From Cupriavidus necator N-1 (GTDB taxonomy: Bacteria; Pseudomonadota; Gammaproteobacteria; Burkholderiales; Burkholderiaceae): a stretch of DNA of 64,000 nt. Numbering within the stretch: the stretch's first letter is position 1; each line of letters begins with the position of its first letter. Made by a program: the position numbers and the translations under genes. This document shows, piece after piece, positions 29,680-49,922 of the stretch. The notes under the pieces were generated by a model. The model saw only the letters and a list, made by a program, of their open reading frames with translations, did not search any database and was not told the origin of the DNA. The stretch is from positions 1,550,001 to 1,614,000 of the forward strand of contig NC_015723.1 of the NCBI RefSeq assembly GCF_000219215.1. The letters are read 5' to 3'.

Positions 29680-29735
29680 GAGGGCCGGGGATCGTGCTGT
29701 AATGGCGTATCGCGAATCTGCCAGGAGGCCACCGC

Positions 29736-30668: not shown

Positions 30669-30930
30669 GCCAGGGGAAGCCTGCACGGCGCGGGGGTGGC
30701 GGCGCCTCGATCCCGCACAAAACGGGGCCGGCGCCGTGCAGCGCCGCCAGAAACACGTCGGCGTCACCATGCAGCTGATAGCGCTCGCCGGGTGCGAGCA
30801 GGACGTCCGGGGACGGCCTGTCCCGTGTTTCGAACGTCAGCCACAGGCTGCCGCCGCGGCAGACCAGGTCCGCGCCGGCCCGCAGTCGCAAGCGCAGGCA
30901 TTCCGCTTCAAGGCAAAGGGTGTATGGCAT
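30637..30930 (-). CDS. DUF2917-like protein
   Basis: A 97-residue protein matching the small DUF2917 group of betaproteobacteria: LRLRAGADLVCRGGSLWLTFE and DVLLAPGERYQLHGDADVFLAAL form the conserved beta-rich core, resembling a small cupin-like fold. Such genes are often near LysR genes. Function is unknown. It runs toward and overlaps the LysR gene end by 32 bp. Confidence 0.7.
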   Translation of the reverse strand: MPYTLCLEAECLRLRLRAGADLVCRGGSLWLTFETRDRPSPDVLLAPGERYQLHGDADVFLAALHGAGPVLCGIEAPPPPRRAGFPWLRWLRGSHVS

Positions 30931-31066
30931 GAAAGGCTCCGGTGAGCCATTTCATTGTGCGAGCCGGCGTCGCGGCTTGCCATGAGCATTGCGTCGGCCA
31001 GCCATGCGTTATCCGATCGCATACGGCCCGGCAAAGCCACCGGGATTGCCGAGTCCCTGGTAAACG

Positions 31067-33314: not shown

Positions 33315-33494
33315 GGCAAGCCCTGTAGACAAGATCATCCAGGCTACCCCCGAGAGTAGACGAAACGGTAAGTCCTGTAGAACTCCTGGGAAGCCCGGCG
33401 ATCAGGTTGCCCGTCCATCGCTATAGATAGAATGGAAAGCATTTGGCCATCAAGTAGATGTTTTGGTAAATTCTGTAGAAACTCTGGTAAGCTC
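33315..33494 (+). repeat. three iteron-like boxes upstream of the Fic gene
   Basis: CTGTAGA occurs at 33323-33329, 33375-33381 and 33473-33479, each preceded by GG(C/T)AA. The second and third boxes extend to about 33 bases of imperfect direct repeat (33367-33399 and 33465-33497). In the last copy TTCTGTAGAA is itself palindromic. They probably mark binding sites for a regulator of the Fic gene. Confidence 0.5.
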
Positions 33495-33528
33495 CGGGCA
33501 AACCCGCACCCAAGGATTGCGACTTCAT

Positions 33529-35052
33529 ATGTCTCATGCGCCACTAGGCTACGATGCGCTTATCCGCAAGTTCGGCTTGCGCGTCCCGCCGCTGCGCTCG
33601 ACGTCCGCTCTCGCCGACAAGACCGGGGTCCTCAGCACGCACACCGGACCGGACGGCACCACGCGCACCGTGTACCCAAGGAACCGCTACCGCGGCGCCG
33701 ACACGACCGTGGACCACCTGACGTTCGCGCTGAAGAAGGAGCACCTGGACCTGACCGTGCTGGCGGCGCTGTTCGAGCATGCGCAAGCGGTGCAGGCTGT
33801 ACGCGAGTGGCTGGCGGCCACCCCGACCTCCCGTTATGCGAGGCTGAGCGCGTTCTATGCCAAATGGCTGGCCGGGGCGCAATTCGACTACAAGCTGCCG
33901 GCCGGGGCGCCCAGGGTACTGGCGCTGGACGAGACCCACTACCTGACCGGCCCGGCAACGCCGGACCTGCAGTTCGGCATCCAGAACAACCACCTTGGCC
34001 CGGCCGCGTTTTGCCCCCTGGTGCGCCGCACCGAGAAGCTGGCGCAGTACATTGCCGCCGACCTCCCCGGCCGCGTGGCCGCGGCCATCAAGCGGCTCGA
34101 GCCAGAGTTGCTGGCGCGCGCGGTGGACTACCTCTACCTCGCGGAAACTCGATCGACCTACTCCATCGAGCACGAGATCCCCGATAACCAGCGGGTCGCC
34201 AAGTTCAGGCGACTGCTGGAGTACGCCGGCAATCCCGCCCCGCTTACCGAAGAGCAGCTGTGCGAGTGGCAGAACGAAATCATCTCGGGGCTGCGCGCTG
34301 AATTCTCCTACCGCGACAAGCAGAACTGGCTGTCCCGCGGCGGGCGCATGCGCAACATCGCGGACTATATTCCCCCGCCGCCCGAGCAGCTTGGCGCGAT
34401 GATGGACGGGATTGCCGCGGTGGCGGGCCTGGTCGCTGCACAGGCGGCAAACCCGATCGTGGCCGCGGCGTGTGTATCGTTTGGCTTTGTCTTCGCCCAC
34501 CCGTTCTACGACGGCAACGGCCGGCTCCATCGGTTCCTCATCCACCATTTGCTGCGCCAGGCCGGTGTCACGCCCGATGGCGTAGTGCTGCCGGTGTCGG
34601 CGCGGATGCTCAAGCAGATCGATACCTATGCCGCCCTGCTGAAGTCCTATTCCGCCCCGCGGACGGCCCTGCTCAACTACGCGCTGGATTCGGACAGCGA
34701 CACGATCCTGATCAAGTCGCCACAGCCCGGCTGGCTTTACGCATCCTTTGATGCGACAGCGCTGTGCGAATTCGTCTTCGAATGCATTGAGCAGTGCGTC
34801 GAGCAAGACCTTGCGCAGGAGATCCAGTACCTGCGCGCTTACGATGCCAGCGTCACACGCCTGGAAAGCTGGCTCGACCTGCGCCAGTCACGCCTGTCGA
34901 ACCTGATCGACCTGATCGTCCAGAACCACGGCGAGCTGTCCAGGCGCAAGCGCAAGCTGTTCGAAGACATCACGGACGACGAGCTCGCCCGCATTGAAGC
35001 CGTCGTGCGCGACGAATTCACGGAATACCTCGAGCTCCACGGCAGCCGCTGA
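33529..35052 (+). CDS. Fic-family protein (class II type adenylyltransferase)
   Basis: A 507-residue protein from ATG 33529 (MSHAPLGYDALIRKFG) behind AAGGATT; a TTG at 33463 gives a longer frame with no RBS. The Fic core motif HPFYDGNGRLHR is at 324-335, a full match to HxFx(D/E)GNGRxxR, so transfer of AMP or another phosphate-linked group to a target protein is expected. An N-terminal element STYSIEHE at 209-216 corresponds to the autoinhibitory S/T-x-x-x-E-G/N motif with His in place of Gly/Asn. The C-terminal 120 residues are helical (VTRLESWLDLRQSRLSNLID) and include a possible HTH. There is no antitoxin gene beside it. Confidence 0.9.
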   Translation: MSHAPLGYDALIRKFGLRVPPLRSTSALADKTGVLSTHTGPDGTTRTVYPRNRYRGADTTVDHLTFALKKEHLDLTVLAALFEHAQAVQAVREWLAATPTSRYARLSAFYAKWLAGAQFDYKLPAGAPRVLALDETHYLTGPATPDLQFGIQNNHLGPAAFCPLVRRTEKLAQYIAADLPGRVAAAIKRLEPELLARAVDYLYLAETRSTYSIEHEIPDNQRVAKFRRLLEYAGNPAPLTEEQLCEWQNEIISGLRAEFSYRDKQNWLSRGGRMRNIADYIPPPPEQLGAMMDGIAAVAGLVAAQAANPIVAAACVSFGFVFAHPFYDGNGRLHRFLIHHLLRQAGVTPDGVVLPVSARMLKQIDTYAALLKSYSAPRTALLNYALDSDSDTILIKSPQPGWLYASFDATALCEFVFECIEQCVEQDLAQEIQYLRAYDASVTRLESWLDLRQSRLSNLIDLIVQNHGELSRRKRKLFEDITDDELARIEAVVRDEFTEYLELHGSR

Positions 35053-36017: not shown

Positions 36018-36536
36018 ATGCACCGCTTCCTTCGTACCCTGCTGGCCACCACCGCCATCGTTGCCGCCCAGTATGCAGCCGCCGCCCCTGCCGACTATGG
36101 CAAGGCGCCTGAATTCACCGGCATCGACAAGTGGCTCAACGCTGAACCGCTGACCGTTGCCGGGCTGCGCGGCAAGGTCGTGCTGGTCGATTTCTGGACC
36201 TACAGCTGCATCAACTGCATCAACACGCTGCCCCATGTGCGGCAGTGGTACGACAAATACCGCGACAAGGGCCTGGTTGTGGTCGGCGTCCACACCCCGG
36301 AGTTCCCCTTCGAGAAGTCCACCGCCAACGTGCAGGCAGCGCTCAAGCGCTTCGATATCCGCTACCCGGTCGCGCAGGACAACGCCTATGCCACCTGGAA
36401 CGCCTGGCGCAACCAGTACTGGCCGGCGCTCTACCTGGTCGATGCCAACGGCACCGTGGTCTACAAGCACTTTGGCGAAGGGAGTTACGCCGAGACCGAA
36501 GCGGCCATCCAGAAGGCGCTGGCCGGGCGCAAGTAA
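36018..36536 (+). CDS. periplasmic thioredoxin-like protein
   Basis: A 172-residue protein with a signal peptide (cleavage near AAA-AP at about 24) and a TlpA/DipZ C-terminal-like thioredoxin fold. The active site is YSCINCINTLP (CxxC with Ile-Asn), followed by the VVVGVHTPEFPFEK strand and the cis-proline region QYWPALYLVD. It should receive electrons from the CcdA-like protein directly upstream and reduce a periplasmic partner, which is not identified here. Confidence 0.92.
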   Translation: MHRFLRTLLATTAIVAAQYAAAAPADYGKAPEFTGIDKWLNAEPLTVAGLRGKVVLVDFWTYSCINCINTLPHVRQWYDKYRDKGLVVVGVHTPEFPFEKSTANVQAALKRFDIRYPVAQDNAYATWNAWRNQYWPALYLVDANGTVVYKHFGEGSYAETEAAIQKALAGRK

Positions 36537-36588
36537 GGCTGACATACCGCCGCCATCGAGCGCGGATGGCGAACGAGCCTGCCGCGCC

Positions 36589-36643
36589 CCGGGCCGTGCT
36601 CTCAGGCACGGCCCGGCCCTTGGAACCTGTCTCGGGTTCCAAG
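36589..36643 (+). terminator. two consecutive hairpins after the thioredoxin-like gene
   Basis: CCGGGCCGTGC pairs perfectly with GCACGGCCCGG (36589-36616). CTTGGAACC pairs perfectly with GGTTCCAAG (36619-36643). Neither has a T-run, but together they probably insulate the Fur-regulated receptor downstream. Confidence 0.5.
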
Positions 36644-36704
36644 ACACATCCGAGCCGGTTTCCCGGCACACCAGACGAAAATTTAGATTCCTCCACAATT
36701 TATT

Positions 36705-36723
36705 GTTAATGCGAATCATTACT
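36705..36723 (+). promoter_or_regulatory. Fur box upstream of the TonB receptor
   Basis: GTTAATGCGAATCATTACT matches the 19-bp Fur consensus GATAATGATAATCATTATC at 14 positions, including the AATCATTA core. It lies 71 bases before the receptor ATG and implies iron repression. Confidence 0.75.
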
Positions 36724-36794
36724 ATTACTATTACAACTCACGGAGTTCTATTACAGCACATTTCGCACATCACTACGTTGGCCTGACCATCACC

Positions 36795-39089
36795 ATGCAA
36801 ACCGCAACACGCTCAGTCACCCTGGCGGGGCCGGCCGGCCGCTGCCGGGTACGTCCGCTCGCTCTTCTTGTGGCCGCCATCGGCGCGGGCACTCCGCTGC
36901 TGTCCGAGGCGCAGGCAATGGCCGCCGCGTCCGCCGTCGCGCAAACCGGCACATCCGGTGCGAGCACAAAGCAGGACAGCCCGCCTGCCAAGGCCGACGG
37001 TGGCGAGCTGAATGCGGTGGAGGTCAGGGTCGACCGGATCAAGAGCGACCTCGTCAGCCCGACGCGCCAGGTAACGGTGCTGGAACGCGAGGAAATCGAG
37101 GAACTGAAGGTGGGTTCCAACAATCTCGCGACCATGCTGAGCAAGCTGATCCCGGGCATGGCGGACTCCAGCCGCACGGTCACAGACTTCGGCCAGACGC
37201 TGCGCGGCCGCGGCACGCTGATCCTGGTGGATGGCATTCCGCTCAACACCAACCGGGATTCGGCGCGCAACCTCGCCACCATCGATCCCAGCAATATCGA
37301 GAAGATCGAGGTCATGCGTGGCAGCAGCGCAATCTACGGCGCCGGCGCCAACGGCGGCATCATCGCGATCACCACGCGGCCTGCGGGTGGCCCGCCCAGC
37401 GCGGATACCACCGTGACGCTGGGCACCCCGCTGACGCGGCTGAGCAAGGAGGGGCTCAGCGCCAATGTCCAGCAGCACTTCTCCGGCAGCCAGGGGCCGA
37501 TCGACTACGCGTTCCACCTGGGCGCGCAGCATATCGGCAGCCCCTATGACGCCCACGGACACCGCATCGCACCGGAGCCGAGCCAGGGTGACCTGTTCGA
37601 TTCCAACGTTTACAACGTGAGCGGCAAGCTGGGCTGGCGCATCGACAGCCAGCAGCGCATCGAACTGAGCGTGAGCCAGTACCAGGCCAAGCAGAACACC
37701 AACTACGCCTCCGATCCCTCGGTGGCCAAGCTGCCGCCTGGCACCGCGGCCGCGCGCGCGATTAAGGGGTTGCAGCTCGAAAACCAGAACGAGCTGCGCA
37801 ACACCGTCGTCAACCTGGGCTACCAGAACCTGGACCTGCTCGGCAGCACCGTGTCCACCCAGATCTACTACCGCGACTACTTCACCCGCTTCCCGCCGTT
37901 CGATGCGCGCGCGGTGGCCACGCGTGGCGGCAACGTGGACCAGGTCAGCCAGAACAGCGATGTATTTGGCGGGCGCCTGACCATCAGCACCCCGCTGGGC
38001 GCGGACAAGAAGACCAAGCTGCTGTGGGGCGCGGACTACAACCAGGAGCGCAGCGACATGCCGCTCGATGTGTTCGATCCGCGCACCTATGACCAGAGCG
38101 GCGGCCTGGTCTTCAACAAGACCGGTTCGCTGACCTACATGCCGCCGCTGGCCACCCGCAGCGGCGGCGTCTTCGGGCAGCTGCAGCACAAGTTCAACGA
38201 GCAATGGTCGATGGAGGGCGGCGTGCGCTACGAGCGCGCCAACGCCAGCTTCGACGACTTCGTGCCGCTGTCGCAATCGAAGGTCAGCAACCCGGTCGCG
38301 GTCAAGGGCGGCACGGTCAACTATGGCGCGTGGCTGTTCAATATCGGCGGTGCGTACGCGCCGGTGAAGAACCAGGAGTTCTATGCCTCGTTCGGCCAGG
38401 GCTTCCAGTTGCCCGATATCGGCCTGCAGATCCGCAATGCGCGCCCGGGCTTCGATATCAATTCGTCCAGCCTGGAGCCGGTCAAGACCAACAACTATGA
38501 AATCGGCTGGCGCGGCGCGTTCGGCAATACGATGGCGAGCCTGGCGCTGTTCTACACCACCTCGCAACTGGGCGACGTGCAGAGCTTCAACAACGGCCTG
38601 ATCCTGACCCGCACCAAGGAACGCATCGCGGGCGTGGAGGCTTCCGCCGACTACCTGAGCGACAGCGAGACCTGGGGCGCGGGCGGCACGTTTACCTGGA
38701 TCAACGGCCGCGAGCAGCCGCAAGGCAGCAGCAGCTTCCAGAACATGACCGGCTACCGCATACCGCCGCTGAAGCTGACCGCCTACGTCCAGTACCGGCC
38801 GATCAGCACGTGGAGCAACCGCCTGCAGGTGACCTACTACGGCGGCCGCGACTACCGCCTCAACGACCAGAACAGCTTCGGGCGGCGCGAGGTCAGCAGC
38901 TACACCACCGTCGACCTGATCAGCCGCTACCAGGTCAGCAAGAAGGACACGATAACGGTGGGGATTGAGAACCTGTTCAACCGCTACTACTACCCGTTGT
39001 ACAGCCAGCTGATGCGCAACAGCAACAACACCAGCCGCCTGCCGGCTGCGGGCATCACGCTGACCGCGATGTACCAGCACCGCTGGTAA
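36795..39089 (+). CDS. TonB-dependent ferric siderophore receptor
   Basis: A 764-residue outer-membrane receptor. The signal peptide is within residues 20-40 (RPLALLVAAIGAG). The plug spans about residues 75-210, with QTLRGRGTLILVDGIPLNTN and IEKIEVMRGSSAIYGAGANGG. A 22-strand barrel follows, ending in the terminal aromatic YQHRW. It is expected to import the ferric form of the staphyloferrin B-type siderophore made by the next eight genes. C. metallidurans has a comparable receptor beside its staphyloferrin B genes. It is separated from sbnA by a terminator and a second Fur box, so it is its own unit. Confidence 0.93.
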   Translation: MQTATRSVTLAGPAGRCRVRPLALLVAAIGAGTPLLSEAQAMAAASAVAQTGTSGASTKQDSPPAKADGGELNAVEVRVDRIKSDLVSPTRQVTVLEREEIEELKVGSNNLATMLSKLIPGMADSSRTVTDFGQTLRGRGTLILVDGIPLNTNRDSARNLATIDPSNIEKIEVMRGSSAIYGAGANGGIIAITTRPAGGPPSADTTVTLGTPLTRLSKEGLSANVQQHFSGSQGPIDYAFHLGAQHIGSPYDAHGHRIAPEPSQGDLFDSNVYNVSGKLGWRIDSQQRIELSVSQYQAKQNTNYASDPSVAKLPPGTAAARAIKGLQLENQNELRNTVVNLGYQNLDLLGSTVSTQIYYRDYFTRFPPFDARAVATRGGNVDQVSQNSDVFGGRLTISTPLGADKKTKLLWGADYNQERSDMPLDVFDPRTYDQSGGLVFNKTGSLTYMPPLATRSGGVFGQLQHKFNEQWSMEGGVRYERANASFDDFVPLSQSKVSNPVAVKGGTVNYGAWLFNIGGAYAPVKNQEFYASFGQGFQLPDIGLQIRNARPGFDINSSSLEPVKTNNYEIGWRGAFGNTMASLALFYTTSQLGDVQSFNNGLILTRTKERIAGVEASADYLSDSETWGAGGTFTWINGREQPQGSSSFQNMTGYRIPPLKLTAYVQYRPISTWSNRLQVTYYGGRDYRLNDQNSFGRREVSSYTTVDLISRYQVSKKDTITVGIENLFNRYYYPLYSQLMRNSNNTSRLPAAGITLTAMYQHRW

Positions 39090-39096
39090 AGCAGCC

Positions 39097-39145
39097 GCCG
39101 GACGGCGATGGCCTTGTCGGGGCCATCCTCGGCCGGCATTTTTTT
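39097..39145 (+). terminator. intrinsic terminator after the receptor gene
   Basis: GATGGCC (39107-39113) pairs with GGCCATC (39121-39127), extended by GCCGG/CCGGC (39097-39101 and 39133-39137), and is followed by A and seven T residues. Confidence 0.75.
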
Positions 39146-39155
39146 AAGCTCAGAT

Positions 39156-39174
39156 GTAAATAATTATCATTTAC
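39156..39174 (+). promoter_or_regulatory. Fur box upstream of sbnA
   Basis: GTAAATAATTATCATTTAC is itself nearly palindromic and matches the Fur consensus at 13 of 19 positions. It lies 57 bases before sbnA and should give iron repression of the whole biosynthetic operon. Confidence 0.75.
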
Positions 39175-39231
39175 AAAGCGATACAAATTGCCCAGGCACG
39201 GTGCCGGGCAACATCGAATGAGGGGTAAGCC

Positions 39232-40254
39232 ATGGTTTGCAACAGCATCATCGAGAGTATCGGCGGGACACCCGTGGTCCATCTGCGCCGCCTGTTCGGG
39301 GACACCGGGGCCGAGGTCTTTGCCAAGCTGGAGCTATTCAATCCCGCCGGCAGCGTCAAGGACCGCCCTGCCCGCTACATCATCGAAAAGGGCCTCGCCG
39401 AAGGCACCATCGGCGCCAACGCCCACATCGTCGAAAGCTCGTCGGGCAACCTGGCGATCGCGCTGGCCATGGTATGCCGGCTGAAGGGACTGCGCTTCAC
39501 CGCCGTGGTCGACCCGAAGATCTCGCAGACCAACCTGACGATCCTGCGCTGTTATGGCGCCGGGATTGAGCTGGTGACCGAGAAGGACAGCCAGGGCGGC
39601 TACCTGGAAACGCGTATCGCGCGCGTGCGGCAGATGCTGCTCGACCTGCCGGATGCGGTCTGGATCAACCAGTACGGCAATCCGCGCAACTGGGAAAGCC
39701 ATTACCACGGCGAAGGCGAGGAAATCCTGCGCCAGCTCGACCGGCCGGTCGACGTGCTGGTGCTCGGCGTGAGTACCTCGGGCACGGTGCATGGCATCGC
39801 GCGCCGCCTGCGCGAGGCGTGGCCCGCGTTGAAGGTGGTGGGCGTGGACGCCGCCGGCTCGGTGCTGTTCGGCCACCCGCCGGCCAGCCGCGAGCTGCCG
39901 GGCATCGGCGCGAGCCGCGTGCCGGAGCTGCTGTGCCGCGAAGAAATCGACCAGGTCATCCATGTGGACGACCACGCGGCGGCCCTCGGCTGCCGGCGCC
40001 TGCTGGCGCAGGAAGGCATCTTTGCCGGCGGGTCGTCCGGCGCGGTGGTCGCCGCGATCGGCCGCCTGTTGCAGGACCTGCCACGCAGCGCACGCCCGCC
40101 CCGCATCCTCACCCTGTTTCCTGACCGCGGCGAACGCTATCTCGACACCGTCTACGACGACGCGTGGCTGGAACGCGTCGCCGCCATCCATCGCGCGCGC
40201 ACGGCTTCGGCTGCCGCGCAATCGTCCATCCCTGCACACGGAGTGACCGCATGA
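39232..40254 (+). CDS. sbnA: SbnA-like N-(2-amino-2-carboxyethyl)-L-glutamate synthase
   Basis: A 340-residue fold-type II PLP enzyme related to cysteine synthase. The PLP lysine is K43 in NPAGSVKDRPARYI, and the substrate loop reads ESSSGNLAIALAM. In S. aureus, SbnA joins O-phospho-L-serine and L-glutamate to form ACEGA, the precursor of L-2,3-diaminopropionate. Start ATG 39232 follows GAGGGGTAAGCC. It overlaps sbnB by ATGA. First gene of a collinear sbnA-H operon. Confidence 0.92.
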   Translation: MVCNSIIESIGGTPVVHLRRLFGDTGAEVFAKLELFNPAGSVKDRPARYIIEKGLAEGTIGANAHIVESSSGNLAIALAMVCRLKGLRFTAVVDPKISQTNLTILRCYGAGIELVTEKDSQGGYLETRIARVRQMLLDLPDAVWINQYGNPRNWESHYHGEGEEILRQLDRPVDVLVLGVSTSGTVHGIARRLREAWPALKVVGVDAAGSVLFGHPPASRELPGIGASRVPELLCREEIDQVIHVDDHAAALGCRRLLAQEGIFAGGSSGAVVAAIGRLLQDLPRSARPPRILTLFPDRGERYLDTVYDDAWLERVAAIHRARTASAAAQSSIPAHGVTA

Positions 40255-41279
40255 ACGCCCCCATCCAGACCCCCGCTGCCGAGCTGCGCTACCTCAGCCG
40301 CGCCGACCTGATCGCCCTTGGCGCCGACCATTCCGACGCCTTTGTTCAGGCTATTGCCGAAGGCCTGGCGCTGCATGCGCGCGACGAATGCGTGCAGCCG
40401 CTCAAGCCTTACCTGCGCTGGGCCGGCGCCGACCATATCGCCGACCGCATCATTGCGATGCCCTGCTACGTCGGCGGCGACAACCCGGTCGCCGGCATCA
40501 AGTGGATCGGCAGCCGCCAGCACAACCCGCAGCGCCATGGTCTGGAACGCGCCAGCGCCGTGATCGTGCTCAACGACGCCCAGACCAATTATCCGGTCGC
40601 CATCATGGAAGGCGGCCTGATCAGCGGCATGCGCACCGCGGCCATCACCGCGGTGGCGACGCGCCACCTGGCGCGCGCGAGCTTTACCGACGTGGCCTGT
40701 ATCGGCTGCGGCCCGATCGCGCGCATGCAGCTGCAGACGCTGCTGGAGCAGTTCCCGGGCATCCGCTGCATCCACCTGTTCGATCTGTCGCGCGACGCAA
40801 TGCAGGCGATGCGCAGCCAGCTGGGCGCGCGCTTCCCGGCGGTTGGCTGGGAGCTGTCGGCAAGCGCCGAGGCGGCGGTGCGTGCCGCCGACGTGACCGT
40901 CACCTGCACGGTTGCGGATGCGCCGTACCTGGAGCATGCCTGGCTCAAGCCCGGAGCCTTTGTCGCCAACGTCTCGATCATGGACGTGCACAAGGACGTC
41001 TATGAGAAGATCGACAAGGTGGTGGTGGACGACTGGGACCAGTCCAACCGCGAGAAGAAGATCATCAACCAACTGGTGCTGGAAGGCCGCTTCAGCCGCG
41101 AGCAGCTGCATGCCGAGCTGGGCGAGATCGTGATCGGCGCGAAGCCGGGGCGCGAGCGCGACGACGAGATCATCCTGCTTAACCCGATGGGCATGGCGCT
41201 GGACGATATGGTGTGCGCGCGCCATTTCTACCAGCTTGCGCTGCAGCGCGGCGTCGGCGTGCGCCTGCCCCTGCTATGA
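40251..41279 (+). CDS. sbnB: SbnB-like N-(2-amino-2-carboxyethyl)-L-glutamate dehydrogenase
   Basis: A 342-residue member of the ornithine cyclodeaminase/mu-crystallin family. The NAD-binding turn is ACIGCGPIARMQLQT, with AGIKWIGSRQHNP and EGGLISGMRTAAITAVATRH upstream, as in SbnB. It oxidatively splits ACEGA into L-2,3-diaminopropionate and 2-oxoglutarate, both used in staphyloferrin B. It overlaps both neighbours by 4 bp. Confidence 0.92.
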   Translation: MNAPIQTPAAELRYLSRADLIALGADHSDAFVQAIAEGLALHARDECVQPLKPYLRWAGADHIADRIIAMPCYVGGDNPVAGIKWIGSRQHNPQRHGLERASAVIVLNDAQTNYPVAIMEGGLISGMRTAAITAVATRHLARASFTDVACIGCGPIARMQLQTLLEQFPGIRCIHLFDLSRDAMQAMRSQLGARFPAVGWELSASAEAAVRAADVTVTCTVADAPYLEHAWLKPGAFVANVSIMDVHKDVYEKIDKVVVDDWDQSNREKKIINQLVLEGRFSREQLHAELGEIVIGAKPGRERDDEIILLNPMGMALDDMVCARHFYQLALQRGVGVRLPLL

Positions 41280-43060
41280 CGGTGCTGCCACACCACCCCG
41301 TACGCGAGCGGATGCTGGCGCAGGACCTGCTGGACGCATTATGGCAGGAGAACCTGTACGGCATGCGCGAGCACTGCCGGCTGGTAGCCGCTGACGACAC
41401 GCCGCTGGCCGCGCTCGCCGTCGACCTGGGTACGGCCGGCACGCTGCTTTGGCTTGGCCGCCGCCTCGACGGCCCCCGGCCGCTGCAGCTTGGCGCCGGC
41501 GATGACAGGCCGCCCGTCGTCCTGCAACGCGACGGCAGCTCCATGCCGCTCGGCGCCGCCGCGGCGTTGGAAGCCTTGCAGTCGGCGGACTGGTGGCCCG
41601 GCCGCAGCGGGCGCCTGCAGACGCTGTTCGCGCTGGCCGAGGCGCAAGCCGCGCGCACGCTTGCGCACGAGCCGGCCATCCTGGATCGCCTTGCGGCGGC
41701 GCCGCGCTCGCTACTGTCGTGGGAGGCGGTTTGCTGCCTGCGCGACCGCCCTTTCCATCCGCTCGCTCGCGCCAAGGCCTGGGGCGATGCGACCGGGCCG
41801 CACGCCGGCTTCGACGCGGAATCCGGCCAGCCCGTATGGCTGCACTGGATTGCCGTGCCGTTACACCGGCTCCGGACCGGTTCGGCGATGGAAGCGTCAG
41901 CGCAACCGCTGGCCCGCTCGCTGCTGCCGCCCGACGAACTCGACCGCCTGGTGGCACGCGCGGAAGCCGCCGGCGCGCAGCGCGGCTACCTGTGGATGCC
42001 GGTGCACCCGTGGCAATGGCAGCAGCAGGCCCACGCCGCCGCCAGCGGGCAAGCGCCATGCATCGACCTCGGTAGCGGCATCGGTGCGGCCTACCCGACC
42101 GCCTCACTGCGCTCGCTCGTCATGCATGGCCGGCCCGAGCTCCACCTCAAGCTGTCGCTGGGCGTGCAGGCACTGGGGGCCAGGCGCACCCTGCCCGCGC
42201 GCTACCTGCACAACGGTGCGCTCGCGCAACAATGCCTGGCGCAGCTGCGGGCGCGCGATCCCTGGCTCGGCCAGCACCTGCTGCTTTGCGACGAGCGCGA
42301 CTGGTGGGCACTGCGCCAGCACGACTCGCTGATCGCTGAGCCGGGCGAGCTCGCCTGCGTGCTCAGGCGCTACCCCGGCGACCTGGCGGCTGGCACGTGG
42401 CTGTTGCCCATGGCGGCGTGCGCGGCGCTGACCGCCTGCAACGACCTGCCGGCGCTGCGCCGGCTGTCCTGCACCGATGCCGACGAGGCCTGGGCGGCAT
42501 TCCGGTGCATCGCGGCCCTGATGCTCGAAACCGGCCTGCGTTGCTTTGCCAACGGCGTCATGCCCGAGCTGCATGGGCAGAACGTCGTGCTGGTGGTCGG
42601 CGAGGCAGGCCCGCGGGCGCTGCTGCTGCGCGATCACGACACGCTGCGCATCTGCCCGTCCCTGCTCGCAGAGGCCGGCGCGGACGTGCCCGCGTACGCC
42701 GTGGACACCGCCACGCCGAATACGCTGATGCTCGATGCGCCGGCGCAACTGCTCGCGTACTTCCAAACGCTGGCGATCGAGGTCAACCTGTACGCCATCG
42801 CCGCCGCGATCGCCGTGGCCTTCGACAGCGACGAGCGCACGGGCTGGCGCATCCTGCGCGAGGAGATCGCCCGATTGCTGGCCGCCGGTACCGGCAACCG
42901 GACCGCAGAGATTGCGCGGACCGCGCTGCTGGATGCGCCGGAATGGCCATTCAAGCAATTGCTTGCGCCGCTGCTGGCGCGCGACACCGCCAGTACCGGC
43001 ATGCCCAGCGCGCTCGGCAGCCTGCGCAATCCGCTGCGCGAGAGCGGAGTCCCGTCATGA
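41276..43060 (+). CDS. sbnC: SbnC-like NIS siderophore synthetase (IucA/IucC family)
   Basis: A 594-residue NRPS-independent synthetase. MPVHPWQWQQQ, LHLKLSLGVQALGARR and the ATP-site ELHGQNVVLV are family motifs, and the C-terminal FhuF-like region is present. In S. aureus, SbnC performs the last step, attaching 2-oxoglutarate. Assignment as C rather than E or F rests on gene order, which is exactly sbnA-B-C-D. ATG 41276 overlaps the sbnB stop. Confidence 0.88.
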   Translation: MTVLPHHPVRERMLAQDLLDALWQENLYGMREHCRLVAADDTPLAALAVDLGTAGTLLWLGRRLDGPRPLQLGAGDDRPPVVLQRDGSSMPLGAAAALEALQSADWWPGRSGRLQTLFALAEAQAARTLAHEPAILDRLAAAPRSLLSWEAVCCLRDRPFHPLARAKAWGDATGPHAGFDAESGQPVWLHWIAVPLHRLRTGSAMEASAQPLARSLLPPDELDRLVARAEAAGAQRGYLWMPVHPWQWQQQAHAAASGQAPCIDLGSGIGAAYPTASLRSLVMHGRPELHLKLSLGVQALGARRTLPARYLHNGALAQQCLAQLRARDPWLGQHLLLCDERDWWALRQHDSLIAEPGELACVLRRYPGDLAAGTWLLPMAACAALTACNDLPALRRLSCTDADEAWAAFRCIAALMLETGLRCFANGVMPELHGQNVVLVVGEAGPRALLLRDHDTLRICPSLLAEAGADVPAYAVDTATPNTLMLDAPAQLLAYFQTLAIEVNLYAIAAAIAVAFDSDERTGWRILREEIARLLAAGTGNRTAEIARTALLDAPEWPFKQLLAPLLARDTASTGMPSALGSLRNPLRESGVPS

Positions 43061-44258
43061 CGCCGGCGCCGCAAGCCGGCCCGTCGCGCGACATCGCCCT
43101 GCTGCTGGCCGGCCAGGCGGTGGTGACGACGGGCCTGATGACGCTGGTGCCGATCATGCCGCTCTACCTGCGCGACCTCGCCGGCCCCGCTGCCGCGCAC
43201 TGGAGCAGCCTGGCGCTGGCCGCGCCGGGCGTCGGCGCGCTGCTGCTGGCGCCGTTCGCCGGCAGCTGGTGCGAACGATGGGGCTACCGCCGGCCCTTGC
43301 TGCTGTCGTTGTCGGCCTTCACCGCCAGCCTGCTGCTGATGGGGCTGTCCACGCACGTGGCCGGCTTCATGGTCGGCCGCCTGTTGCAGGGCGCGAGCGC
43401 CGTCGGCGTCTTGCTGACCATCTGCATCGGCCGCGTCAGCACGCCCGGCATGCGCGGCCGTGCCTTCGGCATGCAGGAATCGGCCGTGGCCACCGGCGCG
43501 CTGCTGGGCCCCGTGCTCGGCGGCGTGCTGCAGGACTGGTGGACGGTGCGGCCGATGCTGCTTGCAGTGGCCGCGGCCAATGCCGTGCTGACGCTGCTGC
43601 TCGCATGGCGGCTGCGCGAGCCGGCGCCACAGGCGTTGCCAGGCGCCGGCTCGTCGCGCGGATTCGCCGCCATGCTGGCGGACGCGTCGCTGCGCCGCTG
43701 GCTGCTGGCCGGCTGCCTGACGCAGGCCGGCGCGTTCGCGCTGGTGAACGTGTTCGCGCTCTACCTGCAGCAGCGCTACCCGTACGATGCCCTGCTCGGC
43801 AGCAAGACCGGCTTCCTGCACGCGCTGGGCTGGCTGGCCGCGATGCTCGCCAGCCCGCTGTGGGGCCGCTCAGCGACCGCGGCACGACCGTGCGCGTATT
43901 CATGTTGGCCGCCGGCGGCTGCGCCGTCGCGCTCGCGTTGCTGCCGCTTGCCGATGCGCTCTGGCAGATCGGCGCGCTCCGGGTCGTGCAGGGCGCGCTG
44001 TTCGCCGCGCTCGCGCAATCCATGCTGTCCTATTGCTGCGCCCGCCTGCCCGCGAGTTTGCACGGCAGCGCCACCGGCATCGCCAAGAGCGCCATGACCG
44101 CCGGGCAACTGGTCGGGCCGCTGGCGGTGATGGCGTGGCTGCCACGCTCCGACCCGGCGGGCACGTTATGGCTGATCGCCGCCATGTTCGCGCTGGCCGC
44201 CGCACTCGTCGTCCCTGATCGCTCATCGTTGTTTGCCACCGTCCCTGATGCGAGGTAA
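43057..44258 (+). pseudogene. sbnD: SbnD-like MFS siderophore exporter, single-base frameshift
   Basis: About 400 residues and 12 helices if read through one shift. From ATG 43057 (MTPAPQAGPSRDIALLL) the frame is clearly MFS (GSWCERWGYRRPLLLSLSAF, FGMQESAVATGALLGPVLGG) up to ASPLWGR. It then continues in the next frame as LSDRGTTVRVFMLAAGG through SATGIAKSAMTAGQLVGP to the stop at 44258. A missing C at about 43869, in GGCCGCTCAGC, explains it. SbnD exports the finished siderophore. The rest of the operon is intact and overlapping, so a sequencing error is plausible; if real, export would need another carrier. Confidence 0.85.
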
Positions 44259-44262
44259 CTGC

Positions 44263-46074
44263 ATGCTTTCCACTCTCCTGCCATCGACCACCGTGGCGCC
44301 GCAAGGGCGCCTGCGCGCCCATCGCCCGGACCGGGATGCCGCCGCGCCCGACGCCGTCGAGCGCCGCCTGATCGAGCAATTCTTCAACACCTACTGCCGC
44401 GAGACCGGCATCGTCGATCCCCGCCTTGACGCGCACCTTCCGGCCCCGGTGCCGGCTGCGCTGAGAAGTACCCTTGCGCGCTGGCGTGCCGAGGGGCTGG
44501 TACCGGCGGTGCTGGCACTGGCGGATCGCGACGGCCGCCACCGCTGGCTGGCTGCTGCGCTCTCCTACGTATCCCCGATCGGCTACCACCGGCTCGCGGA
44601 TGCGGTGCTGTCCGACGGCAGCGCCTTCGCCCCGCTGCGCCGCGCCGAGAATCTGGCCGATGCCATCACCCAGGCGCTCGCGCATGCCTACCCACAGAGC
44701 GCCGCCACCGACTGGCCGGAGCGCTTTGCCACGCTGATGAAGAACGGCGTCCAGAAGGTGCGCCTGTACCACCGCGAAGCGCCCGCACGGCAAGCGCCCT
44801 CGCGCTTTATCGCTGCCGAGCAGGGGCTGCGCTTCGGGCACATATTCCACGCCACGTCGAAGGCGTCGGAAGGGTTCAGCCACGATGCGCTGCAACGCTA
44901 TGCGCCGGAGCTCGGCGCCGCCTTCCAGCTGCACTACTTCGCCGTCGCCAGCGACCAGTTGGAGAGCAGCGCCATCGACGGCCAGCCGCTGCCTATCGAC
45001 CCCGCGGCAATGGAGGCCGCCGCGGACCTGCTCAAGGAGGGCGACTACCGCCTGCTGCCCTGCCATCCCTGGCAAGCCACGCAGCTGCTCGCGCACAGCG
45101 AGATCCAGCCACTGCTGGCCAGCCGCGCGATGATTTCCCTCGGGCCGCTGGGAGAGCTGGCCTGGCCGACCTCGTCGGTACGCACGGTGTGGCTGCCGCA
45201 GCAGCAACGCTTCCTCAAGCTGGCGCTCGATATCCGCATCACCAACTTTGTCCGCAACAATCCGCCCGAGCACGTGCGGCGCGCGCTGGATGCCAGCCGC
45301 GCCATCGCCATGCTGCCCGAGGCGGCGCGTTCGTCCGCACACTTCACGGTGCTGGCCGAAACCGGCTACGCCGTGCTGGCCCTGCCCGACAACGCGCTGC
45401 GCGCGAGCACCGCGGTGATCTTCCGGCAAGGCATGACCGGCCCGCATGGCGACGCCGCGCAAGTGCTCGCCACGGTGCTGGAGGAGCCCGCGCATGGCGC
45501 CGGCATCCTGGACGGCCTGCTGCGCGAAGCGCTGGGCCATCAACCCGGCGCGGCGGATATCCGCCGCTGGTGGGCGCGCTATCTCGATGTCACGCTGCTG
45601 CCGCTGGCGCGCCTGTTCGCCGAGCACGGCGTCAGCCTGGAGGCACACCTGCAGAACAGCATGGTCGCGTTCGCGGGCGGCTGGCCGGTGCACGGCTATG
45701 TCCGCGACATGGAAGGCGCCAGCATCAGCCGCGCCCGCTTTGCCTGGGCGGCGCAGTTCGATGCCGACAGTCCCGCCCTGTACACCGAGGAAGCCGCGCT
45801 GCATCGCTTTGCCTATTACGTGCTGGTCAACCATATCGGCCACTTCGTCGCCTGCCTGGCGCGCACGGGCGGCTGCGACGAAGCCACGCTGTGGCAGGAC
45901 ACCGCAGCCGCGCTCGACGCAGGCGGCCCATCGCTGCGCCAGCTGCTGGCGTCGCTGCAGGGCCTGCCCACCCTTCCCGCCAAGGCCAACATGCTGAGCT
46001 GCTTCGGCCGCCACGGCGAAACGCCTGCGTGGGCAGGCGTCCCGAACTTCCTCGTATCCGCACCGCTAGCCTGA
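44263..46074 (+). CDS. sbnE: SbnE-like NIS siderophore synthetase (IucA/IucC family)
   Basis: A 603-residue synthetase from ATG 44263 (MLSTLLPSTTVAPQG), preceded by GCGAGG and 4 bases after the exporter. Motifs: GHIFHATSKASEGFS, LLPCHPWQATQL, LKLALDIRITNFVRNNPPE and LEAHLQNSMVAF. In S. aureus, SbnE condenses citrate with the first L-2,3-diaminopropionate. An in-frame ATG at 44233 would overlap the exporter and is less likely. Confidence 0.88.
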   Translation: MLSTLLPSTTVAPQGRLRAHRPDRDAAAPDAVERRLIEQFFNTYCRETGIVDPRLDAHLPAPVPAALRSTLARWRAEGLVPAVLALADRDGRHRWLAAALSYVSPIGYHRLADAVLSDGSAFAPLRRAENLADAITQALAHAYPQSAATDWPERFATLMKNGVQKVRLYHREAPARQAPSRFIAAEQGLRFGHIFHATSKASEGFSHDALQRYAPELGAAFQLHYFAVASDQLESSAIDGQPLPIDPAAMEAAADLLKEGDYRLLPCHPWQATQLLAHSEIQPLLASRAMISLGPLGELAWPTSSVRTVWLPQQQRFLKLALDIRITNFVRNNPPEHVRRALDASRAIAMLPEAARSSAHFTVLAETGYAVLALPDNALRASTAVIFRQGMTGPHGDAAQVLATVLEEPAHGAGILDGLLREALGHQPGAADIRRWWARYLDVTLLPLARLFAEHGVSLEAHLQNSMVAFAGGWPVHGYVRDMEGASISRARFAWAAQFDADSPALYTEEAALHRFAYYVLVNHIGHFVACLARTGGCDEATLWQDTAAALDAGGPSLRQLLASLQGLPTLPAKANMLSCFGRHGETPAWAGVPNFLVSAPLA

Positions 46075-46081
46075 GCCCCCG

Positions 46082-47863
46082 ATGAACACCACCGATTACC
46101 AACGACTGATCCAGAGCCCGCAATACCAGCAAGCCGCCCGCCGCGTGCTGCGCCAGCTGCTGGAAGCCCTGTTGTTCGAAGACTGCCTGCGCGACGTGAT
46201 TGTCAGCGACGCCGGCGTCGAACTGCCCGGCGTGACGGCAGGCGGCCAACCCGTCAGCTATCGCTGCGCCGCGCAGCGCACCGCCAGCTTCGGCCGCATC
46301 CGCATCCGTGGGCCGGTGCTCCGTTGCGAAGGCGAGAGCCAGGCTGAAGCCGACGACGTCGCGCAACTGCTGTCCGAGCTTGCCGGCCAGCTCGATGCCG
46401 ACCCGGTGCGCCTGCAGCAGTTCGGGCTGGAGCTGCTGTCCACGCAGGTCAAGGACGCGCAGTCCCACCATGCCAACGGGCACGCCGGACAACCGTTGCG
46501 CGATGCCGGCTACGATGCCATCGAAGCGCGGCTGACGGGTGCCCATCCTTACCACCCGGGATATAAATCGCGCATGGGTTTCACGCTGGCGGACAACGGA
46601 CGCTACGCGCCGGAATGCGCCGCGCCCCTGCAGCCCGTGCTGCTGGCAGCGCGCCGCTCGCATTGCCGCTGGAATCTCGGCAACGCCGAGGCATCGCCCG
46701 AGAGCCTGCTGCCACCGCCGGCGCGCGCCGCATTTGAGGCCGCTTTGCGCGAGCATGGTGCCAATCCCGCCGACTACCTGCCGCTGCCCGTCCACCCGTG
46801 GCAATGGGACGAGGTCATCGCGCCGGGCTACCACGGCGCGTTCGCGCGCGGCGAGCTGATCGCCGTCGGCGAGATGCCGGGCCGCTACCTGCCCCAGCAG
46901 TCGATCCGCACCCTCGCCAATGCCGATCAGGCCGATGCGTTGTCGCTCAAGCTGGCCATGAATCTCGTCAACACGTCCACTTCGCGCGTGCTGGCGCCGC
47001 ACACGGTATGCAACGCCGCCGTCTTGAGTGACTGGCTGGCGAGCCTGGTGGCGCGCACGGAATGGACCGAGCCGATGGCCGCGCCGGTGTTGCTGCGCGA
47101 AGTCGCCGGCGTCAGCCATGTGCCCGCCGCGCCGGTGCAGGGCCAGTACGGCGCGCTTTCCTGCATCTGGCGCGAAAGCATCCACCGCTATCTGGCACCC
47201 GGCGAGGCCGCCATTCCCATGACCGCGCTTACCCATATCGATGTCGACGGCCTGCCGCTGATCGAGCCGTGGGTCCGCCGTCATGGCGTGCGCGTCTGGC
47301 TGCAGCGGCTGGTGGAGCGTGCATGGCTGCCGGTGCTGCACCTGCTCTGGGAGCACGGCACCGCGCTCGAGTCGCACGCGCAGAACATGCTGCTGCTGCA
47401 CGTCGACGGCCTGCCGCAGCGCGTGGCGCTCAAGGACTTTCACGACGGCGTGCGCTTCTCGCGCCAGTGGCTGTCCGGCGCCGCGCCGCAACTCACGCCG
47501 CCGCCGGCCGAGCATGCGCGCGTCAACCCGAACTCGTTTATTGAAACGGACGATGCCGATGAACTGCGGGACTTCACCTGCGACGCACTGTTCTTCGTCA
47601 ACCTGGCCGAACTGGCCCCACTGCTTGCCGGCCACTACCAGCTCGAGGAAACAGCGTTCTGGGCCATCGTGGCAGGCGTGATCCGCAGCTACCAGCGCGC
47701 ACACCCGCGCCTGGCTGAAAGCTTCCGGCGCTTCGACTGCTTCGCGCCCACCATGTCGATCGAACTGTTGGCCAGCCGCCGCTTCATGCCCGAGATCCGG
47801 CTGCGCACGCGGCAGGCGCCCAATCCGCTGGCGCTGGCGGAGGCGGAGGCGGAGGCGGCATGA
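46082..47863 (+). CDS. sbnF: SbnF-like NIS siderophore synthetase (IucA/IucC family)
   Basis: A 593-residue synthetase, the third in the operon. Motifs: AHPYHPGYKSRMGF, LPVHPWQWDEV, LSLKLAMNLVNTSTSRVLAPH, LESHAQNMLLLH and LKDFHDGVRFSR. SbnF adds the second diaminopropionate unit to citryl-diaminoethane in S. aureus. The C-terminus is an Ala/Glu repeat (ALAEAEAEAA) from GGCGGAGGC-type codon repeats. It overlaps sbnG by 4 bp. Confidence 0.88.
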   Translation: MNTTDYQRLIQSPQYQQAARRVLRQLLEALLFEDCLRDVIVSDAGVELPGVTAGGQPVSYRCAAQRTASFGRIRIRGPVLRCEGESQAEADDVAQLLSELAGQLDADPVRLQQFGLELLSTQVKDAQSHHANGHAGQPLRDAGYDAIEARLTGAHPYHPGYKSRMGFTLADNGRYAPECAAPLQPVLLAARRSHCRWNLGNAEASPESLLPPPARAAFEAALREHGANPADYLPLPVHPWQWDEVIAPGYHGAFARGELIAVGEMPGRYLPQQSIRTLANADQADALSLKLAMNLVNTSTSRVLAPHTVCNAAVLSDWLASLVARTEWTEPMAAPVLLREVAGVSHVPAAPVQGQYGALSCIWRESIHRYLAPGEAAIPMTALTHIDVDGLPLIEPWVRRHGVRVWLQRLVERAWLPVLHLLWEHGTALESHAQNMLLLHVDGLPQRVALKDFHDGVRFSRQWLSGAAPQLTPPPAEHARVNPNSFIETDDADELRDFTCDALFFVNLAELAPLLAGHYQLEETAFWAIVAGVIRSYQRAHPRLAESFRRFDCFAPTMSIELLASRRFMPEIRLRTRQAPNPLALAEAEAEAA

Positions 47864-48636
47864 GATCGCTGAAGGCGCGTTTGTCGGATCCGGGCGGCGG
47901 CCAGGTGCACGGCCTGTTCTGCTCGACGCCTGCGGCACTGACCGTCGAGCTGATCGCTGCCGCCGGCTATGACTTCGTGGTGATCGACCTGGAACACACG
48001 CTGATCGATGGCGCGCAGCTTGGCGCCATGCTGCTGGCGGCGCGCGCCAGCGGCATCGCGCCACTGGTGCGCGTGGCGGCCCCGCACCAGGTGGCGCCGG
48101 CGCTGGACGCCGGCGCCCAGGGCATCGTCTTCCCGCGCATCAGTGCTGTAGCGCAGGCAAGGCAGGCGGCCAGGCTCTGCCACTACGCACAGCATCAGCC
48201 CATGCCCGGCGAGCGGGGGCTGAACGCCACCTGGCATAGCGCGTTCGGCCGCGACGATCTTGCCGCCGCCACTGCCGCAGCGGGCGCCGATACGCTGGTC
48301 GTGGCGATGATCGAAGACAGCGCCGCGCTCGATGCGCTCGATGACATCGCCGCTGTACCCGGCATCGATGTGCTGCTCGAAGGCGCCGCGGATCTCTCGC
48401 AATCACTGGGCGTGCCATGGCAGACGCGTCATCCGCTGGTGTGGGACGCCGTGGCGCGCATTGCCGATGCGGCGCGCGCGCATGGCAAGCATTTCTGCGC
48501 GCTGCCGCGCACCCCGGAAGACGCCGCGCTCTGGCGCCGGCAAGGCACGCGCATGCTGCTGCTCGGCGACGACCGCGGCATCGCGCGCCGGGCCATGGCC
48601 GCACACCTGCAATCCCATTCCCAGTCATCAACATAA
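47860..48636 (+). CDS. sbnG: SbnG-like citrate synthase (HpcH/HpaI aldolase fold)
   Basis: A 258-residue member of the HpcH/HpaI aldolase superfamily, with YDFVVIDLEHTLIDG, GAQGIVFPRIS and TLVVAMIEDSAALD marking the divalent-metal site. In S. aureus, SbnG makes citrate from oxaloacetate and acetyl-CoA, freeing siderophore synthesis from the TCA-cycle citrate synthase. The generic aldolase annotation is possible from sequence alone; the operon position decides for SbnG. Confidence 0.88.
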   Translation: MRSLKARLSDPGGGQVHGLFCSTPAALTVELIAAAGYDFVVIDLEHTLIDGAQLGAMLLAARASGIAPLVRVAAPHQVAPALDAGAQGIVFPRISAVAQARQAARLCHYAQHQPMPGERGLNATWHSAFGRDDLAAATAAAGADTLVVAMIEDSAALDALDDIAAVPGIDVLLEGAADLSQSLGVPWQTRHPLVWDAVARIADAARAHGKHFCALPRTPEDAALWRRQGTRMLLLGDDRGIARRAMAAHLQSHSQSST

Positions 48637-48658
48637 AGCCGCCCCTTCCCGCCACCCC

Positions 48659-49849
48659 ATGAACCCGCAAAACATCACCCGTTACCTGGATGAACTTGAT
48701 CCCCGCAAGGGGCCTGCGTGCGCCTATCTCTATGACCTGGACCACCTGCGCACGCGCGCGGCTGGCCTCGCTGCCGCCTTGCCCGAGGACTGCGATCTCT
48801 ACTACGCAATCAAGGCCAACAGCGATGCGCCAGTGCTGCGCGCGCTGCTGGGCGCAACGGCCGGCTTCGAAGTCGCGTCGCTGGGTGAAATCGAACGCGT
48901 GCGCGCCGTCGAAGCCGACGTGCCGGTCGTATTCGGGGGCCCGGGCAAGACCGATGCCGAGCTGGAGGGCGCGCTGCGCCTCGGCGTCAGGCTGATCCAC
49001 GTCGAAAGCGCGCTGCAACTGCGCCGGCTGGACCGCATCGCGCAACGCATGGGCCGCCGCGCCGACGTGCTGCTGCGCGTGAATCCGGCCTACGGCCTGC
49101 CCGGCGCCACGCTGCAGATGGGCGGGCGTCCGACGCAGTTCGGCATCGACCAGGCGGAACTCCCCGCCGTGATCGCGTTGGCATGCGACCTGCCCGGCGT
49201 GCGCCTGGTCGGGCTGCACCTGCACGCGGGCTCCAACAGCCTGGACGCCGACCAGCATCTCGAACTGATTTCACGCCATATCGCGCTGGCGCAGCAATGC
49301 CGTGACGAACACGGATTGGCGCTGGAATGGCTGAATGTCGGCGGCGGCATCGGCATCGACTACACCGATCCCGATCGCACCTTTGACTGGCCGCGCTTCT
49401 GCGCCGGGCTGGCGCAACTGCTGCAGCAGCGGCGGCCCGGCTGCCGCATCGTGCTGGAATGCGGCCGTTTCATCAGCGCCGACTGCGGCTGCTACGTGGC
49501 TGAAGTCATCGACCTCAAGCACAATCACGGCAAGCACTTCGCCATCGTGCGCGGCGGTACGCACCATTTCCGGCTGCCGGTGTCGTGGCAGCACAATCAT
49601 CCGTTTTTCGTCGCGCCGAACGACGCGTGGCCTTACCCGTTTGCGCGCCCGGAGCTGACTGACGCAAGGCTCACGATCTGCGGCGAGCTTTGCACGCCGA
49701 AGGACGTCTTCGCGCAGGAGGTAACGGTGCCGCGCGTGCGCGTGGGCGACCGCATCGTCTTTATGCTGGCCGGGGCCTACGGCTGGCACATCTCGCACCA
49801 CGACTTCCTCAGCCATCCGCATCCGGAAAGGGTGTTTTTCGGCGAGTAG
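48659..49849 (+). CDS. sbnH: SbnH-like PLP-dependent decarboxylase
   Basis: A 396-residue fold-type III (alanine racemase-like) decarboxylase related to LysA. The PLP lysine is K52 in DLYYAIKANSD, HLHAGSNSLDAD and LNVGGGIGIDYTDP bind PLP phosphate, and CGELCTPKDVFA carries the catalytic Cys-Asp region. SbnH decarboxylates citryl-diaminopropionate to citryl-diaminoethane. It ends the cluster. S. aureus sbnI, which makes O-phosphoserine, has no counterpart here. Confidence 0.9.
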   Translation: MNPQNITRYLDELDPRKGPACAYLYDLDHLRTRAAGLAAALPEDCDLYYAIKANSDAPVLRALLGATAGFEVASLGEIERVRAVEADVPVVFGGPGKTDAELEGALRLGVRLIHVESALQLRRLDRIAQRMGRRADVLLRVNPAYGLPGATLQMGGRPTQFGIDQAELPAVIALACDLPGVRLVGLHLHAGSNSLDADQHLELISRHIALAQQCRDEHGLALEWLNVGGGIGIDYTDPDRTFDWPRFCAGLAQLLQQRRPGCRIVLECGRFISADCGCYVAEVIDLKHNHGKHFAIVRGGTHHFRLPVSWQHNHPFFVAPNDAWPYPFARPELTDARLTICGELCTPKDVFAQEVTVPRVRVGDRIVFMLAGAYGWHISHHDFLSHPHPERVFFGE

Positions 49850-49866
49850 CCGGCCCCGGACCTGTT

Positions 49867-49884
49867 CCGCGCGCCGGCGCGCGG
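49867..49884 (+). terminator. GC-rich palindrome after sbnH
   Basis: CCGCGCGCCGGCGCGCGG is perfectly self-complementary, 17 bases after the sbnH stop. It has no loop or T-run in the usual form, so its terminator role is tentative. Confidence 0.35.
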
Positions 49885-49922
49885 CGCTGTTCCACGGTTC
49901 TTATCCTCCCGTGCAAGGGAGC

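Follow-up and report, generated by a model that had tools for sequence, protein, structure and literature searches.

How did a Cupriavidus chromosome come to carry a siderophore locus laid out like that of Staphylococcus aureus, and how is such a locus controlled at its present site? The locus lies in a 64,000-nucleotide stretch of Cupriavidus necator N-1 (hereafter the window) on contig C1 (2,684,606 bp) of an 8.48-Mb genome. On the plus strand, a TonB-dependent receptor gene is followed by homologues of the staphyloferrin B genes sbnA to sbnH (39232–49849) in the order A-B-C-D-E-F-G-H. A first-pass annotation of the window had described these eight genes in their S. aureus order, with a TonB receptor in front of them in place of the staphylococcal uptake genes sirABC, and our analysis confirmed this arrangement. 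We conclude that the block is very probably a staphyloferrin B biosynthesis, export and uptake unit of the proteobacterial branch, which was inserted at this site, is devoid of the STN domain and of the FecI/FecR pair, and is expected to be under Fur control only. The locus is less surprising than the annotation had proposed, because a paper of 2010 had already reported the cluster, its receptor and the synteny with S. aureus for Cupriavidus metallidurans CH34 and Ralstonia; it describes the CH34 cluster and classifies the CH34 siderophore as staphyloferrin B (PMC2864759). Both the siderophore system and the genus are known, and what is new is the insertion, the missing surface signalling and the lack of any match to SbnI.

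To identify the gene products, we compared them with curated family models and solved structures. The best matches of SbnA, SbnB, SbnG and SbnH in the PDB were the S. aureus proteins of the same name, with 401 bits (next protein, 187), 393 bits (153), 208 bits (96) and 381 bits (190), respectively; a table of PMC7139808 lists the entries 4m54, 4tv5 and 6knh as SbnB, SbnG and SbnH. SbnA is 57% identical to S. aureus SbnA, and its residues Arg132, Tyr152 and Ser185, reported to be responsible for selective phosphoserine binding (PMC12414870), are all kept in an alignment in which positions were counted by eye. Both members of the SbnA–SbnB pair for L-2,3-diaminopropionate exceeded their curated NCBIfam cut-offs. 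The three nonribosomal peptide synthetase-independent siderophore (NIS) synthetases, SbnC, SbnE and SbnF, occupy their sbn positions in both gene order and trees, and a whole-genome search with the IucA/IucC family (PF04183) gave three matches, all within the block. The receptor consists of Plug and barrel domains and shares 73% identity with that of CH34 over residues 72–764, while SbnE and the N-terminal piece of SbnD are each 65% identical to their CH34 counterparts. Two family results weigh against the assignment. SbnC and SbnF matched the staphylococcal NCBIfam models below the name cut-offs (279 of 700 and 485 of 900 bits), which we take as set for staphylococcal proteins and thus as a naming rule and not a pathway trait, and no SbnE model appeared in the scan of the NCBIfam library.

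These identities suggest that the chemical product is staphyloferrin B. An achromobactin- or aerobactin-type cluster, the outcome that the annotation had named as contrary to its reading, is very unlikely. For SbnC and SbnF, the Sbn models far outscored the rhizoferrin model of the same library. The best PDB match of SbnC was 7cbb, labelled as an IucA/IucC family protein (219 bits, next 46), and that of SbnF was AsbB (389 bits). SbnE is the less clear case: it groups with the proteobacterial sbn clade, but its best solved relatives are IucA (129 bits) and AcsD (107 bits), and the PDB listings for the window SbnE and SbnF contained no protein labelled SbnE or SbnF. SbnG-like genes of another cluster kind (46–49% identical), which occur in 14 of 60 Cupriavidus genomes, could also be taken to favor such a cluster. 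The dedicated SbnA/SbnB pair, an SbnF and a decarboxylase of Sbn type, and the position of the window within the proteobacterial sbn group in all seven gene trees argue against it. It is somewhat easier to imagine, though still improbable, that the block makes a related but different diaminopropionate-citrate siderophore, given that identity to the Staphylococcus schweitzeri synthetases is only 31% for SbnC and SbnE and 37% for SbnF, and that the sbn product of Methylobacterium 22A is called staphyloferrin B-like, its structure still to be determined (PMC9301485). Against this, CH34, whose proteins are 56–89% identical to those of the window, makes staphyloferrin B (PMC2864759), and the precursor and assembly genes are all present.

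In the proposed pathway, SbnA and SbnB would convert O-phosphoserine and glutamate to L-2,3-diaminopropionate and alpha-ketoglutarate, SbnG would make citrate, and SbnE, SbnH, SbnF and SbnC would assemble staphyloferrin B, which SbnD would export and the AleB-type receptor would take back in its ferric form. The absence of sbnI noted in the annotation was borne out: a 169-aa fragment of S. schweitzeri SbnI had no match in this genome (G000), in Cupriavidus lacunae (G002) or in CH34 (G030), and the same fragment was found in both staphylococcal genomes searched (S. schweitzeri itself and Staphylococcus coagulans). The ParB family (PF02195), as another route to an SbnI, had six matches in the genome, one of them below the cut-off, and was set aside given the negative result with the SbnI fragment. 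The Methylobacterium 22A cluster is also described as lacking sbnI (PMC9301485), and we did not treat this gene as defining outside staphylococci. Since no SbnI was found, phosphoserine would presumably be supplied by the general serine pathway.

Is the shared gene order a trace of exchange with staphylococci? We scanned the genome_contigs collection with SbnA patterns of S. aureus, the window, CH34 and C. lacunae, and examined 82 loci: the best 80 of 104 relatives, together with L024 and L025. The order A-B-C-D-E-F-G-H was found in 23 of them, representing 22 distinct loci because C. lacunae was present twice. Outside the Proteobacteria these belonged to Staphylococcus (three), Brevibacillus (two), Paenibacillus (one), Marinithermofilum (one) and Pseudonocardiaceae (two). 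The proteobacterial loci came from Motiliproteus (one), Methylobacter (one), beta-proteobacteria (ten) and one gamma-proteobacterial metagenome-assembled genome (MAG; Ga0077554, L038), in which sbnC matched two separate frames, a possible frame break. The remaining loci had another arrangement, such as A-B-H-F-F in many Paenibacillus, or sbnA alone; since the scan ordered loci by their similarity to S. aureus, these counts are no measure of how common the order is. A concatenated tree of SbnA, B, C, E, F, G and H was built from 25 clusters, namely the 22 distinct loci, the window, L034 (without SbnH) and L065 (with another order); all trees were quick ones, with SH-aLRT supports only and midpoint rooting. 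The Proteobacteria were set apart from Bacillota, Actinobacteria and a Nitrospira MAG, and the window paired with C. lacunae (92% identity), then with CH34 and then with Burkholderia Ax-1724.

The split between the Proteobacteria and the rest recurred in all seven single-gene trees (SH-aLRT 72 for SbnB and 99–100 otherwise), arguing that there is no recent link with staphylococci. The window and C. lacunae stayed together in all seven, and the three Cupriavidus in six of seven. This concordance fits movement of the cluster as a unit. Some branches count against so simple a picture: CH34 fell outside the Cupriavidus clade in the SbnC tree, support for that clade was just 46 for SbnA and 70 for SbnG, and Cupriavidus and Burkholderia, joined in six of the trees, were not joined in that of SbnH. 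When the SbnC tree was widened by 18 proteins, picked from the listed homologues for named taxa, CH34 did join the clade (support 86), and Cupriavidus stood beside a Ralstonia–Burkholderia–Pararobbsia group, with long-branch warnings elsewhere. A single recent transfer of the cluster from staphylococci to Cupriavidus, or the reverse, would account for the identical order, yet we consider it extremely improbable: the order is common to Brevibacillus, Paenibacillus, Marinithermofilum, Pseudonocardia, Motiliproteus and the ten beta-proteobacterial loci, and the window and the staphylococci lie on opposite sides of the branch that parts the Proteobacteria from the rest in every gene tree. The earlier claim that conserved order argues for block transfer across phyla, followed by amelioration of composition, was therefore too strong, as all seven trees separate the Proteobacteria from Firmicutes and Actinobacteria. 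The order common to S. aureus is a widespread layout of the cluster and no sign of recent cross-phylum transfer.

What the data do show is of local scale, a 13-kb insertion at this site of DNA 91% identical to that of C. lacunae. Flank searches covered 60 Cupriavidus genomes, of which five were read in detail (G029, G002, G015, G070 and G014). G029 aligns to the window up to 36530 (94.0% identity) and resumes at 49884 (95.8%), with 10 bases between, and the flanks are likewise joined in C. lacunae/G002 (23 bases between), G015 (54), G070 (56) and G014 (54). These alignments are most simply read as an insertion here that postdates the split from G029. C. lacunae has an empty copy of this site and carries its own sbn block between DUF934/sulfite reductase genes and PEBP/carboxylase genes. 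Outside 36703–49837, no match of at least 60 bases to the rest of L024 or L151 was found, except the same stretch in L152. SbnG of at least 75% identity is present in three of the 60 genomes: this one, C. lacunae and CH34. As a separate observation, G014, G008, G015, G029 and others carry different NIS synthetase genes plus the SbnG-like gene that is 46–49% identical.

These data suggest a recent arrival of the block at the site in one piece, together with a receptor promoter of its own under Fur control; the source would be a strain in or close to the genus, or else an older copy that relocated. One comparison tells against a preference for transfer: the block is 91.0% identical to its counterpart in C. 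lacunae, close to the figure for the DNA that flanks the empty site there (88.8–91.5%, with a weaker 73% piece farther left), so relocation of an old resident block explains the data as well as transfer does. GC content is 68.7% inside the block, 68.1% in the right flank and 63.8% at 30.0–36.5 kb on the left. The block thus resembles its right flank while the left flank is lower, and composition is not diagnostic of amelioration; a source in the genus would explain matching composition without it. At the junctions, 36501–36740 and 49801–49920 shared no word of at least 10 bases, and no mobile element was identified at the insertion. A repeat origin of the left junction was rejected, as 36531–36794 is single copy in the genome. 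Spread by plasmid was also rejected: 36700–49900 had no megablast match among 72,556 PLSDB records, a set from which records near the window genome may be left out.

We next consider the control of the block. In CH34, aleB is directly preceded by FecR and FecI genes, which act along with Fur (PMC2864759). An STN-bearing receptor with adjacent genes for FecR and an extracytoplasmic function (ECF) sigma factor was found in CH34, Herbaspirillum robiniae, Herbaspirillum CF444 and Burkholderia Ax-1724, hence in all four beta-proteobacterial loci, C. lacunae aside, that yielded a comparable receptor (L025, L058, L060 and L062); the comparison is limited to clusters with such a receptor in reach, and so excludes, for example, L046, L047, L048, L053, L055 and L064. 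The receptors of the window and of C. lacunae have no STN domain and no adjoining FecR/ECF sigma pair. The simplest reading is one loss of STN and FecIR within the Cupriavidus–Burkholderia–Herbaspirillum group, a direction that we infer. A tblastn search for FecI/FecR remnants in the window gave chance-level matches only (best E 0.13). In the host genome, STN has a single match, in a secretin, and FecR has a single match, a LysM-FecR protein encoded next to a response regulator; a FecI/FecR pair acting in trans was rejected on this FecR result, and the genome-wide searches revealed no convincing substitute for FecI, FecR or STN. Two findings count against a loss of this kind. STN is also missing from the receptors at two distant loci, L065 and L066, so the trait is not universal, and CH34 FecI had five weak matches in the host genome (best 33% identical), so that a sigma factor could act from elsewhere.

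To evaluate Fur sites, we scanned the plus strand of the window against the classical 19-bp consensus, with 20 single-base shuffles as a control. The sites before the receptor and before sbnA were the two best matches of the whole window (14 and 13 of 19). The best shuffle value was 13, reached in three of the 20 shuffles, and none reached 14. The receptor thus has a Fur-box-like site of its own, where the annotation had placed a Fur box, whereas the sbnA site by itself does no better than chance. C. lacunae has both sites at the same positions (13/19 before the receptor and 12/19 before sbnA); for the CH34 locus, the eight top-scoring sites listed include one (12/19) before sbnA and none immediately in front of aleB. 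These results are consistent with Fur-only control of the block: because STN and the adjacent FecI/FecR are missing, Fur alone, and not the returning siderophore, would be expected to set expression. More tentatively, and with rather less than even confidence, we propose that in one Cupriavidus lineage the block became compact and self-contained, a mobile unit of about 13.1 kb starting from its own Fur box, which shed STN and FecI/FecR and went from siderophore sensing plus Fur to Fur only, and that its independence of a specific sigma factor is what would let it work at new chromosomal sites and in new hosts.

The locus had been called complete, which is wrong because sbnD is broken as sequenced. 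Against an intact export function, sbnD does not form one frame: its two pieces lie in different frames, and alignment with C. lacunae, to which the N-terminal piece is 93% identical, places the change near 43867. In the database, the window SbnD (P0126) has 346 aa and carries PF07690/PF00083, while a C. necator protein that is 93% identical over the N-terminal piece (P0127) has 400 aa. Both pieces fall in a single frame in 19 of the 22 distinct collinear loci, including C. lacunae and CH34; in the other three (L028, L068 and L070), the N-terminal piece alone was matched, within long frames. Assembly quality was checked against G029 over the aligning parts of the window. A second single-base break near 57594 splits a sugar ABC ATPase (57223–58849) that is open in G029 as one 541-aa frame with two ABC domains, and this is a likely assembly indel. 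Further apparent breaks, at 53412 and 55429, fall in stretches without demonstrated coding status; the latter interrupts a 307-aa frame of G029 (window 54899–55796), with the same difference against C. lacunae, and this frame has no Pfam domain and is unsure as a coding sequence.

Since the ABC ATPase is also broken, assembly indels are the likelier cause, and the sbnD break is probably an assembly error. If it is real, the exporter would be impaired, and the strain might mainly keep the receptor or make little siderophore. Such a decaying cluster, for which the frame change relative to C. lacunae, the single frame in CH34 and the 346 against 400 aa would speak, is an unlikely but serious alternative. 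Each of the remaining eight genes occupies a single open frame, the break in an ordinary sugar ABC ATPase points to assembly indels, and S. aureus sbnD mutants are reported to be only partially deficient in secretion (PMC7139808). Elsewhere in the block, the starts of SbnB, SbnC, SbnE and SbnH are later than those of the longest open reading frames (40251, 41276, 44263 and 48659), and the start codons of sbnB, sbnC, sbnD and sbnG overlap the stop of the preceding gene, from which one transcript would be expected. The features are listed in Table 1.

Table 1 Features of the inserted siderophore block (window coordinates)
Feature	Position	Strand	Basis or remark
Inserted segment	36531..49883	+	Same flanking genes without the segment in five related Cupriavidus genomes examined
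Unit common to C. lacunae, at another chromosomal place there	36703..49837	+	91.0% identity over 13,153 aligned columns to L024
Fur-box-like site before receptor	36705..36723	+	14/19 to classical consensus
TonB-dependent ferric siderophore receptor, AleB orthologue without N-terminal STN	36795..39089	+	TIGR01783, 357 bits
Fur-box-like site before sbnA	39156..39174	+	13/19 to classical consensus
sbnA, N-(1-amino-1-carboxyl-2-ethyl)-glutamic acid (ACEGA) synthase, first step to L-2,3-diaminopropionate	39232..40254	+	TIGR03945, 431 bits (cut-off 350)
sbnB, ACEGA dehydrogenase	40251..41279	+	TIGR03944, 404 bits (cut-off 327)
sbnC, NIS synthetase, last condensation	41276..43060	+	NF033583 SbnC, 279 bits (name cut-off 700)
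sbnD, N-terminal piece, major facilitator superfamily (MFS) exporter	43057..43866	+	Frame continues out of register to 44097
sbnD, C-terminal piece, different frame	43869..44258	+	93% identical to C. lacunae
sbnE, NIS synthetase, citrate-activating by position	44263..46074	+	PF04183 and PF06276
sbnF, NIS synthetase	46082..47863	+	NF033586 SbnF, 485 bits (name cut-off 900)
sbnG, HpcH/HpaI-fold citrate synthase	47860..48636	+	S. aureus SbnG (4tv5), 208 bits
sbnH, pyridoxal phosphate (PLP)-dependent decarboxylase	48659..49849	+	S. aureus SbnH (6knh), 381 bits

Among known systems, that of CH34 (Rmet_1109-1118, aleB; PMC2864759) shares the receptor followed by sbnA to sbnH; unlike the window, it has FecI/FecR beside aleB, an STN domain in the receptor, another chromosomal place and sbnD in one frame. 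C. lacunae S23 (NZ_QKWJ01000012, L024/L063) shares all nine genes at 91% DNA identity, the STN-less receptor and the two Fur-like sites, and differs in chromosomal place and in its unbroken sbnD. For the Ralstonia solanacearum complex (RSp0414-0424), the same product and gene set are described (PMC2864759, PMC12997786), with aleB and, unlike in the window, FecI shared with CH34 (PMC2864759), and a cluster on the megaplasmid in one strain (PMC10073495). The S. aureus sbnA-I/sirABC system has the same A–H order and chemistry, but it includes sbnI and, according to PMC7139808, an adjacent opposite sirABC operon where the window has the TonB receptor. Methylobacterium aquaticum 22A is another Gram-negative bacterium with an sbn cluster lacking sbnI, in which sbnE and sbnF are reported to be fused (PMC9301485), whereas they are separate in the window. 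A literature search combining Cupriavidus lacunae and siderophore found nothing, and one combining staphyloferrin B, FecI and Ralstonia turned up the CH34 genome paper.

Three further stretches of the window, 19807–23455, 23654–25254 and 28105–31056, are absent at the same place in G029, which indicates that this part of the chromosome is rich in insertions or deletions. The first contains an M20 peptidase, a TctC receptor and a portion of a dienelactone hydrolase, the second a portion of the chrB region, and the third an MFS transporter. A chromate resistance pair, ChrB and a chromate transporter, lies at 24523–26706, and a Fic/DOC-family protein at 33463–35052 lies upstream of the DsbD-like/redoxin pair next to the insertion. 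Many small indels distinguish the stretch at 32.6–33.4 kb from G029.

The locus is otherwise ordinary, and what deserves follow-up is that a relocating block has lost surface signalling. One receptor and pathway can be seen with trans-envelope sigma-factor signalling in CH34, Herbaspirillum and Burkholderia and without it in this genome and C. lacunae, which provides a natural comparison, and to this is added an insertion with clear bounds whose site is empty in close relatives. This allows testing of what such signalling adds to siderophore systems, and of whether its loss goes with mobility.

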